Of a stretch of DNA of 64,000 nt, positions 9,182-12,546 are shown in pieces (position 1 is the stretch's first letter; each line of letters starts with the position of its first letter). A program made the translations under genes and the position numbers. Origin of the DNA: Thermococcus sp. EP1 (lineage in GTDB: Archaea > Methanobacteriota_B > Thermococci > Thermococcales > Thermococcaceae). A model generated the notes under the pieces. It was not told the DNA's origin. It made no database searches and saw only the letters and a program-made list of their open reading frames with translations. Location: positions 124,001 through 188,000 of the forward strand of contig NZ_JXCG01000001.1 in NCBI RefSeq assembly GCF_001317345.1. The letters are read 5' to 3'.

Positions 9182-10027
9182 ATGAAGAAAATCCTAGCTT
9201 TAATCAGCATCCTTGCAATTTTACCCCTTATCAGTGCCCAATTTACAGTCTCTGAGATGGAATTAACTGTATACACTGATGGTTATGTCAAAGTTCATTA
9301 TCAAATAATTCCCGATGAATACTCCTCCCAGATAATTCTGCCATTTTTAGGAGAGAACTACGAAGGACTGGCAGTCGTTGATGAAAATAACAACCCATTA
9401 AATTTCGAGATTTACGACAAACATATAGTGATATATGTTGGCGAGGCCCAAATCGTTGATGTTTCTTATTATACACCAGACATTACATATAAAGAGGGAC
9501 TGGTATGGACAATTAATGTTTCTAGTGACTTCCCCTTTAATATAATTCTACCAGAAAATGCTGTTGTTGTGGATCTTTCAGAAGTGCCCCTCAAAATAGC
9601 CTCCAATGTAATAACAATGCCCCCTGGGAATCAAAGTATCTCATACACTTTGGAATTCAAAGAAACTCCTACAGAGGAAGGACAAAGTTATAGCAAATAT
9701 CTTTTACCATTAGGAATTTTGGTGTTTATACTCTTGATTTCTATTGTCCTTGCCAGAAATAGGAGAAAAGAGCCTAAAAGAACAGAAGTCCACATAGACA
9801 AAGAAGAATTCTTGAAAAAACTCGAATCCTTTAATCTAAATGAAGATGAAAGGAGAGCATTACTTTATATCTTAGAGAAAGGTGGAAGAGCCAGCCAAGC
9901 AGAAGTGAGAACTGCTCTGGAGATACCAAAAACTACAGCTTGGAGAATGTTCAAACGTCTTGAAAAGCAAGGGTTAGTGAAAATAATCAAAGGAAGAAAA
10001 GAAAACTGGGTGGAACTCAAGCTTTGA
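9182..10027 (+). CDS. Membrane-anchored winged-helix transcription regulator
   Basis: 281 residues. An N-terminal signal/anchor (ILALISILAILPLISA) is followed by a beta-rich extracytoplasmic region to about residue 170. One transmembrane helix (LLPLGILVFILLISIVLA) then leads to a basic stop (RNRRKEPKR) and a cytoplasmic C-terminal winged helix. The latter has EDERRALLYILEKGG, an S-QAEVRTAL recognition region, KTTAWRMFKRLE and a KIIKGRKENWVEL wing. Outside sensor plus inside DNA-binding domain on one chain is a known archaeal arrangement. The start has the GGAGGTTGGGAG ribosome site upstream. It follows the secreted repeat protein closely and likely responds to it or to a shared ligand; the target genes are unknown. 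Confidence 0.82.
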   Translation: MKKILALISILAILPLISAQFTVSEMELTVYTDGYVKVHYQIIPDEYSSQIILPFLGENYEGLAVVDENNNPLNFEIYDKHIVIYVGEAQIVDVSYYTPDITYKEGLVWTINVSSDFPFNIILPENAVVVDLSEVPLKIASNVITMPPGNQSISYTLEFKETPTEEGQSYSKYLLPLGILVFILLISIVLARNRRKEPKRTEVHIDKEEFLKKLESFNLNEDERRALLYILEKGGRASQAEVRTALEIPKTTAWRMFKRLEKQGLVKIIKGRKENWVELKL

Positions 10028-10065
10028 GGTACTCCCTTACCATTCTTTCTCAATTTATCCAAAAC

Positions 10066-10219
10066 GTGAACTACCCCACCCTGAAGGGTGAGGCTTCGTG
10101 AGAGTTCATTCGGCATCCCGTTGCCGGTAGCCTCACTCTCACCGGCCGGTTCACACGGCCACTACCGACTATCCCTCCAACAAGGGAATCGCCGGCTACT
10201 TTTCAAATTGTTAAACCAC
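10066..10219 (-). ncRNA. Structured high-GC ncRNA with TnpB/omegaRNA-like 3' end
   Basis: Read on the minus strand, this GC-rich block in AT-rich DNA folds into several perfect stems. They are TCCCT/AGGGA (10171-10188 area), GGTAG (10166-10162) with CTACC (10130-10126), a nested GGCCG/CGGCC hairpin, GGCA/TGCC, and a terminal CACCC-TTCA-GGGTG hairpin (10077-10090). The loop GTGAAC (10154-10149) is complementary to GTTCAC at the 3' end (10071-10066). GTGAGGCT (10136-10129) pairs with AGCCTCAC (10095-10088), so pseudoknots are possible. The 3' segment resembles right ends of IS200/IS605 elements. A consensus promoter precedes it. No transposase gene is adjacent. It could instead be one of the free-standing high-GC RNAs known in Pyrococcus. 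Confidence 0.65.
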
Positions 10220-10238
10220 TTATTACTACTGGCAAGAG

Positions 10239-10253
10239 TATTTAAACTTTTCG
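10239..10253 (-). promoter_or_regulatory. BRE/TATA promoter of the orphan ncRNA
   Basis: On the minus strand CCGAAAA (BRE-like, 10253-10247) is followed directly by GTTTAAATA (10247-10239), a strong match to the Thermococcales promoter consensus. Transcription would begin near 10217, just before the structured block. The 300-bp gap between the regulator gene and metG holds this promoter, the ncRNA and nothing else I can identify. Confidence 0.65.
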
Positions 10254-10331
10254 GTGTTTGCTTTTAGAGTGTTTGCATCCCCTCCCTTTCGGAAAGGGTC
10301 TTCCCAAAAAAGATAAAAATGGGGAGAAAAC

Positions 10332-12515
10332 TCACCTCACCTTTGCTCCAAGTTTAACTTCTTTTTCTGGAGTTAGCAAAGCAACATTTTTGCCATCATC
10401 TGCAGCCAAGATCATCCCCTGACTCTCGATTCCTCTGAGTTTCTTAGGCTCAAGGTTTGTTATTACAGCTACGTACCTATTGAGCAACTCTTCCTTTTTA
10501 TAGTATTTCTTCAGTCCTGCTACGAGTTGTCTGACTTCATCTCCAAGATCCACCTTAATCAAGTAAAGCTTGTCTGCATTTGGATGGTCTTCAACACCAA
10601 TTATCTTTCCAATTCTTATGTCAAGTTTTGCAAATTCCTCAAATTTCACATAGCTCACTTTACTACCCTCCTTTTTTTCTCTTTTAGGTGTGATTTTCAT
10701 TTTCTCCCCATAAATCCTCCTAAGAATTATCTCACTTTCATCCCCAAGTCTCTCTTTAGCTATCTTTATAACATCCTCCATTTTGTAGTACTTATCTAAG
10801 AGAATTCTTGCACTTTCTGGATTTCCTTTGCCTATGTAGTTAACTACATATGCTATAATGTCCTCATCGCTGACCTTTCTAAAGAGAATTTCAGCCTTTC
10901 TAACTTTGTGACCTGCTTCTAGTGGGACGAATTCCCATCTTTTCACTTCCTCAATGTTAAGCAGATGCCAGATTTTCTCGCTCGCATCTGGAAGGAATGG
11001 CTCAAGGAGAACCCCAAGGGCCTTGACTAACTGGAGGGAAATATTTACTGTAGTTCCTGTTCTAACTTTATCAGTCTTAGCAGTCTTCCATGGCCTCTGA
11101 TAGTCAAAGTACTGGTTTCCAAATATTGCTAGGGCCATTACCCTCTTGAGAGCTTCCTTAAACTGATACCTCGAAATAAGCCTACCTACTTCCTCAAAGG
11201 TTTTTTCAATTTCTTTAAGTGCTTTTCTGTCAAGATCATCAAGTTCTCCAGTTTCTGGAACCTTTCCATCAAAATACCTGTTCACAAAGGTCAGTGCTCG
11301 GTGTACAAAGTTTCCAAGATTGTTCACAAGTTCCTCGTTTATTTTCTTTTTGAAGTCCTCAAAGCTAAAGTCACTGTCCCTTGTTTCAGGCATTATAGCC
11401 GTTAGGTAGTATCTCAAATAATCCGCAGGAAATGCATCAAGGAACTCATGGACCCATATCGCCCAATTTCTGCTTGTTGAGAACTTTCTTCCCTCAAGAT
11501 TTAGGTATTCGTTTGCTGGGATGTCATATGGAAGATTCCATTCAAACTTAGCATTATTGTCCTCATACTTTCCATAAGCCATTAAGAATGCTGGCCAGAA
11601 TATGGCGTGGAATGGGACATTGTCTTTTCCAATGAAATGGATCACTCTTGTTTCACCATCAATGTTAAACCAGTACTTTTTCCACTCATCCTCTTTTCCA
11701 AGTTTTTTGAAGTGTTCTATTGTTATTGATACATAACCAATTGGAGCTTCAAACCATACGTAGAGGACTTTTCCTTTAACATCTTCATCTTCTAGCGGAA
11801 CCGGAATTCCCCAACTTAAATCCCTGGTTATTGCTCTCTCTTCCAAACCTTCATTAATCCATCCTAACACAGTGTTTCTAACATTTGATTTCCAGTGTTC
11901 TTGCCTGAGAACCCAATCCTTAAGTTTTTCTTGAAAGTCTTGCATTCTTATATAGTAATGAGCTGAGTCCCTAAAGGTAATTGAGTTTCCACAGATATTA
12001 CATTTCGGATTTATAAGTTTCTCTGGAGTTAGTGGATGTCCACAGACTTCACATTGATCTCCTCTTTGCTCTTCCGCACCGCAGTAAGGGCATGTTCCAA
12101 TAACATACCTGTCAGGTAAGAACATTTTATCGTGCTCACAATAAGCTTGTTTTTCAACTTTCTTAACTAAGTAACCATTTTCAAGAGCTTTAAGGAAGAA
12201 CTCCTGACTTATACGATAATGAACCGGGAGCTCAGTTCTACCAAAGTAATCAAAGCTAATTTTAGCCCTCTCAAAAGTTGTCTTGATGTGTTCATGATAG
12301 TAATCAACTATTTCCCTTGGGCTCTTTCCTTCTTTAAGGGCTCTGAACGTTATTGGTGTACCATGCTCATCTGTTCCACATATAAATACAACATCCTCTC
12401 CTTTTAACCTCAAGTAGCGTACGAATATATCCGCCGGCAGGTAGGCTCCGGCCAAATGCCCTGCATGAATAGGGCCATTAGCATAAGGCAAAGCAGATGT
12501 CACTGTGAACCTCAT
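10332..12515 (-). CDS. metG: Methionyl-tRNA synthetase
   Basis: About 727 residues. Class I synthetase with ALPYANGPIHAGH (HIGH-type motif), two CxxC zinc knuckles near residues 140-175 (CPYCGAEEQ, CEVCGH, CNICGN), the catalytic loop KFSTSRN (KMSKS equivalent), an anticodon-binding helical domain, and a C-terminal OB-fold tRNA-binding domain (FAKLDIRIGKI to the end) fused on the same chain. The ATG at 12515 follows GGGGGTGA; an upstream in-frame TTG at 12530 probably lies at or before the transcription start. TnpB-end-like sequences lie on both sides of the gene. Confidence 0.97.
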   Translation of the reverse strand: MRFTVTSALPYANGPIHAGHLAGAYLPADIFVRYLRLKGEDVVFICGTDEHGTPITFRALKEGKSPREIVDYYHEHIKTTFERAKISFDYFGRTELPVHYRISQEFFLKALENGYLVKKVEKQAYCEHDKMFLPDRYVIGTCPYCGAEEQRGDQCEVCGHPLTPEKLINPKCNICGNSITFRDSAHYYIRMQDFQEKLKDWVLRQEHWKSNVRNTVLGWINEGLEERAITRDLSWGIPVPLEDEDVKGKVLYVWFEAPIGYVSITIEHFKKLGKEDEWKKYWFNIDGETRVIHFIGKDNVPFHAIFWPAFLMAYGKYEDNNAKFEWNLPYDIPANEYLNLEGRKFSTSRNWAIWVHEFLDAFPADYLRYYLTAIMPETRDSDFSFEDFKKKINEELVNNLGNFVHRALTFVNRYFDGKVPETGELDDLDRKALKEIEKTFEEVGRLISRYQFKEALKRVMALAIFGNQYFDYQRPWKTAKTDKVRTGTTVNISLQLVKALGVLLEPFLPDASEKIWHLLNIEEVKRWEFVPLEAGHKVRKAEILFRKVSDEDIIAYVVNYIGKGNPESARILLDKYYKMEDVIKIAKERLGDESEIILRRIYGEKMKITPKREKKEGSKVSYVKFEEFAKLDIRIGKIIGVEDHPNADKLYLIKVDLGDEVRQLVAGLKKYYKKEELLNRYVAVITNLEPKKLRGIESQGMILAADDGKNVALLTPEKEVKLGAKVR

Positions 12516-12546
12516 CCCTATCACCCCCAAAGACTAACTCGCTGCC

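Follow-up and report, generated by a model that had tools for sequence, protein, structure and literature searches.

A 247-bp PATE with its own promoter and a TnpB-type omegaRNA scaffold in Thermococcaceae, a probable guide-RNA-only parasite of transposon proteins

omegaRNA loci that stand apart from the nuclease gene have been reported for IscB/TnpB systems. In ISDra2, the RNA used by TnpB (reRNA or omegaRNA) is made from the right end of the element and the 3′ end of tnpB, is about 150 nt long, and takes a 3′ guide from the host flank, and its target motif is also the insertion motif (PMC8612924, PMC10097598); the 3′ end of the scaffold forms a pseudoknot with an upstream hairpin (PMC10097598). 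The PATEs of Haloquadratum walsbyi, and HqIRS71 in particular, are described in the cited sections of their 2011 report as IS605-type derivatives that are too short for a transposase, have near-terminal palindromes and no terminal inverted repeats, and make no target duplication; HqIRS71 also retains part of the TnpB C-terminal region, and those sections give these elements no RNA role (PMC3119063). The element reported here shares these PATE features, and its predicted RNA is like that of ISDra2. It differs from the H. walsbyi PATEs in that copies of its type have a promoter at fixed spacing and, directly after it, an omegaRNA scaffold that covaries, and from ISDra2 in having no tnpB inside, its own promoter adjoining the scaffold, TTTAT rather than TTGAT as its motif, and a partner TnpB without the usual zinc-finger cysteines. 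From the trans-encoded IscB/TnpB omegaRNA loci, it differs in its setting, a PATE in an archaeal hyperthermophile.

The window, by which we mean the whole 64,000-nt stretch of DNA analyzed, comes from a Thermococcaceae genome (G000) available as a 95.9% complete draft of 1.82 Mb in 43 contigs. At positions 10066 to 10312, its minus strand carries a 247-bp mobile element, an omegaRNA-only derivative of an IS200/IS605-type tnpB element, whose edges are common to many copies and agree with four orthologous empty sites. It is flanked by the 3′ ends of two genes, one for methionyl-tRNA synthetase (10332 to 12530) and one for a protein of 281 amino acids (9182 to 10027). Read along the minus strand, the element consists of a left-end hairpin, a BRE/TATA promoter, a short leader, and a scaffold that contains the right-end hairpin and stops at a sharp edge at GTTCAC (10066). 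Immediately 5′ of the left end is the target (transposon-associated) motif TTTAT (10313 to 10317), which by our count adjoins the left end in 10 of the 13 clearly alignable left ends. The left-end subterminal hairpin is CCCTTT-CCG-AAAGGG (10284 to 10298), and a similar one is found at this end in other copies as well as in full tnpB elements; the scaffold core spans 135 nt (10066 to 10200), and the right-end hairpin within it (10073 to 10094) has 88.3% of its cells paired and double changes at three pairs. The palindromes thus lie near both ends, the end sequences differ, and there are no terminal inverted repeats. Neither tnpA nor tnpB is present at the site, and 247 bp is too short to encode a transposase. 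With its subterminal palindromes, short target motif, absence of target duplication, lack of room for a transposase, and repeated, mobile occurrence, the element is an IS605-derived PATE. The original prediction had drawn a GC-rich, structured minus-strand block from 10066 to 10253, headed by a BRE/TATA and with no transposase or nuclease gene beside it. The sequence is as it described, including the promoter (CCGAAAAGTTTAAATA, 10254 to 10239) and the right edge at 10066; the left boundary needed correction, since the unit reaches 10312 and includes the left-end hairpin, with TTTAT beyond it, neither of which had been reported.

Copies of this unit, bounded by the same right edge, are found among unrelated flanking sequences both in G000 and in related genomes. 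The site that it occupies in the window is uninterrupted in four relatives (G004, G005, G009, and G012); the element was therefore inserted without target duplication. In these empty sites, TTTAT (TTTAAT in G004) is followed directly by a stretch corresponding to the host flank that adjoins the scaffold edge in the window, GTTTTGGATAAATTGA (16 nt, 10050 to 10065, minus strand), which is 2 nt shorter in the window than in the relatives. The bases after 10066 therefore sit where a TnpB guide sits, and the earlier suggestion that the guide runs leftward from 10065 stands as a prediction based on position. No other TTTAT-plus-guide match was found in G000 with up to three mismatches. Among the relatives checked, the insertion is private to G000, and by comparison of these sites the element appears to be a young mobile insertion rather than a domesticated host RNA.

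By homology, G000 holds three copies: the one in the window, one on contig 10, and one split between contigs 11 and 12. The contig-10 copy (G000:C10:35179-35329) is also present at the same site in G009 (G009:C1:1897747-1897869) with a nearly identical guide; some copies have therefore been kept vertically. At the site of the split copy, G009 has a left-end remnant and G005 has a 1.96-kb insertion (L193, G005:C2:23700-26300) with a resolvase-like open reading frame (ORF) and a TnpB. We considered whether the PATE at this site arose in place from a full element and rejected this, as the G005 insertion is of IS607 type by its ORFs.

A search for tnpB copies with the same 3′ scaffold, a check proposed with the original prediction, found the scaffold abutting TnpB domains in eleven related genomes (G002, G003, G004, G007, G009, G010, G011, G012, G014, G020, and G033). 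Full elements of about 1.4 kb (L075, L077, L079, and L081) match the window copy at the left end, the promoter, and the right end and carry a TnpB-family ORF in between, and in related Thermococcaceae tnpB elements the left end lies about 1.4 kb upstream of the scaffold. This ORF extends across the scaffold and stops only a few bases short of the right edge, and some of the frames are broken; its Pfam domains are OrfB_IS605 and Cas12f1-like_TNB. The L077 TnpB retains the RuvC D/E/D positions, as judged both from its motifs and from alignment to Cas12f chains; the RuvC-II motif of L075 has K where L077 has E. The TNB region of the cognate TnpB clade (ORFs of L075, L077, L014, and L050) is without the usual zinc-finger cysteines or CxxC pairs, and the activity of these proteins is therefore not assured. 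Because the left end and promoter found upstream of tnpB, and the scaffold, are the same in full elements and in the window, the window copy is an internal deletion extending from near the start of tnpB to near its end, which places the parent element's left-end promoter (10239 to 10254) next to the omegaRNA scaffold. These elements bear out the proposals that the block is a TnpB-type guide RNA scaffold and that its 3′ end is like IS200/IS605 right ends, the right edge being common to the tnpB-carrying elements.

The RNA from 10219 to 10050 on the minus strand folds at −70.6 kcal/mol, compared with −52.1 ± 4.0 kcal/mol for shuffled sequences (z = −4.66; 0 of 200 as stable). Across 25 TnpB-less copies, 95.8% of structure cells are paired, and double changes occur at 13 pairs against 8.0 ± 1.4 in shuffled controls (2 of 500) and in 50 cells against 20.4; the 14 copies that we call type 1, taken alone, give 12 such pairs against a shuffled maximum of 9, all of which is support for covariation rather than proof, as the controls leave kinship between copies in place. 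The stems are thus conserved by compensatory changes in excess of shuffles, and the fold is conserved together with a guide-proximal pseudoknot, as in TnpB omegaRNA. This pseudoknot links GTTCAC at the scaffold 3′ end (10066 to 10071) to GTGAAC in a hairpin loop about 85 nt upstream (10149 to 10154). Of 40 copies, 5 show a joint replacement of A-U by C-G that turns its halves into GGTCAC and GTGACC, and there is one mismatch. It was one of two pseudoknots originally proposed. The other, GTGAGGCT with AGCCTCAC, is present in the window copy and not kept in relatives; it pairs no better than shuffled in the 25 copies, with one pair broken in 18 of 22, and we rejected it. By our reading, 13 of 33 TnpB-less copies (truncated ones included) have a break in the reading frame of the TnpB C-terminal region, and none of 22 full ones has such a break upstream of the right-end hairpin, which points to constraint on the RNA rather than the protein, although some covariation may be older than the loss of tnpB and be inherited from tnpB-bearing parents.

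The promoter also keeps its place. TTTAAATA or a close variant lies 44 to 48 nt from the scaffold start in 15 of the 19 listed left-end-bearing copies of the window's kind, and the remaining 4 have related but altered boxes. A second type of short, tnpB-less copy (type 2: L080, L116 to L119, L121, L122, L124, L128, L130, and L131) differs in its leader, carries two extra small hairpins, and places TTTAAATA 62 to 79 nt (mostly 78 nt) from the scaffold. That two families of different build each hold the promoter at a fixed spacing is an argument that the element benefits from having its scaffold transcribed.

A covariance-model search, which had also been suggested as a check, detected the scaffold in 45 of the 94 genomes of Thermococcaceae; G004 has 33 matches, G011 27, G009 21, and G012 13, counts that take in tnpB-linked copies and weak HgcC-like ones. 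A DNA pattern search of genome contigs gave matches in Thermococcales records only; the pattern had no match in viral contigs, and plasmids gave no match either. In G011, one copy of the element has an HgcG RNA (RF00064, 192 bits; L007:2405-2679) about 0.7 kb away. Cognate TnpBs were found in G004, G009, G011, and G012. The one TnpB in G000 is 29% identical to the cognate clade and has an HgcC-like scaffold; no cognate TnpB and no Y1 TnpA were found in this 95.9%-complete, 43-contig assembly. The cognate partner would therefore be missing, lost, or unassembled in G000, where the element may be idle at present because neither protein is in the assembly.

In Rfam, which was also named with the original prediction, the window copy scores 21.7 bits against HgcC (RF00062), under the 50-bit gathering cut-off; its scaffold is distantly similar to HgcC and of a different sequence subfamily. 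The HgcC-like scaffold of G000 goes with a TnpB that is not of the cognate clade. In the HgcC consensus, the loop CUGACC can pair with GGUCAG at the 3′ end, giving the same pseudoknot topology. The single TnpB of G000 (L084, G000:C7:12483-12896) has an HgcC-like RNA (RF00062, 46.7 bits) at its 3′ end. When HgcC was searched in 18 genomes, at least 19 of the 48 best matches that we compared with TnpB domains lay 33 to 109 bp downstream of such a domain on the same strand; most of these HgcC matches are below the Rfam cut-off, and the TnpB positions are those among the matches listed. Transcriptomics of Thermococcus kodakarensis found some HgcC RNAs within transposase genes and others outside them (PMC4247193). 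Taken with the matches downstream of TnpB domains, this finding suggests that the HgcC RNAs belong to the TnpB omegaRNAs and that some are solo; among the papers searched, none joins HgcC and TnpB.

Beyond the ends, target motif, private insertion, parentage, conserved fold, and promoter spacing, which are read from sequence, the element most likely makes a trans-acting omegaRNA, for which we infer both transcription and loading. The deletion removed nearly all of tnpB and kept both ends, the left-end promoter, and the tnpB 3′ end encoding the omegaRNA. Transcription would start near 10218, cross the scaffold, and continue past 10066, and from what is known of TnpB (PMC8612924), the product would be an omegaRNA with the host flank, 10065 to 10050, as its 3′ guide. 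TnpB from a full element would load this RNA in trans. After a Y1 transposase excised the element, TnpB would cut the joined donor site, TTTAT plus flank. This site is created only by excision, since the occupied site has TTCAC where the joined site would have TTTAT; repair of the cut joint from a sister copy would then restore the element. We consider it probable that this is a non-autonomous IS200/IS605-type PATE, an internal deletion of a tnpB parent, that spreads as a guide-RNA-only parasite of TnpA and TnpB.

The most serious competitor, to which we give a clearly smaller but real chance, is an inert deletion derivative that a Y1 transposase moves or moved in trans and that does nothing else, its hairpins mattering only as DNA ends and its scaffold a passive remnant of tnpB. 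It is known that PATEs move although they carry no transposase (PMC3119063), IS200/IS605 elements need end hairpins at the DNA level, G000 is without a cognate TnpB, and the covariation could come from tnpB-bearing parents. Against this, copies with a broken TnpB frame retain pairing both in the guide-proximal pseudoknot and in internal helices that lie far from the ends, and both PATE families hold the promoter at a fixed spacing to the scaffold. A host-domesticated guide RNA that controls a gene through a TnpB elsewhere seems very unlikely to us, although the element does have its own promoter and no adjoining nuclease, and solo transcribed RNAs of the related HgcC family occur in T. kodakarensis (HgcC4 and HgcC5; PMC4247193): the insertion is private to G000 among the relatives checked, with the site empty in four of them, both transposon ends are intact, and the genome offers no second TTTAT-plus-guide target with up to three mismatches. 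Of the earlier suggestion of a domesticated omegaRNA acting with a TnpB elsewhere, what remains is that a TnpB would be needed in trans. The other earlier suggestion, a free-standing structural RNA unrelated to TnpB, had in its favor that Thermococcales have several orphan noncoding RNAs, HgcC among them; we consider it negligible, as it is contradicted by the occurrence of this scaffold, with the same right edge, as the tnpB 3′ end in the eleven related genomes.

Neither PATEs nor omegaRNAs are new; what looks new is that Thermococcales have omegaRNA-only families that bear a promoter, and that there is a link to HgcC. The wider proposal is that Thermococcaceae hold amplified guide-RNA-only transposons, with a promoter and an omegaRNA and no protein gene, that were made at least twice and exploit TnpB and TnpA in trans, the guide RNA being the unit under selection, and that the HgcC RNAs, too, are such omegaRNAs, in part solo; on this proposal as a whole we are evenly divided. 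In a large element family of related genomes, it seems to be only the guide RNA that is retained and propagated, which makes it testable whether a guide RNA by itself can be a selfish element that borrows a nuclease. The copies are also a naturally occurring collection of hyperthermophilic RNAs that are candidates for trans-acting omegaRNAs and for which related genomes encode a matching TnpB; the link to TnpB offers an explanation for the HgcC RNA family, long unexplained.
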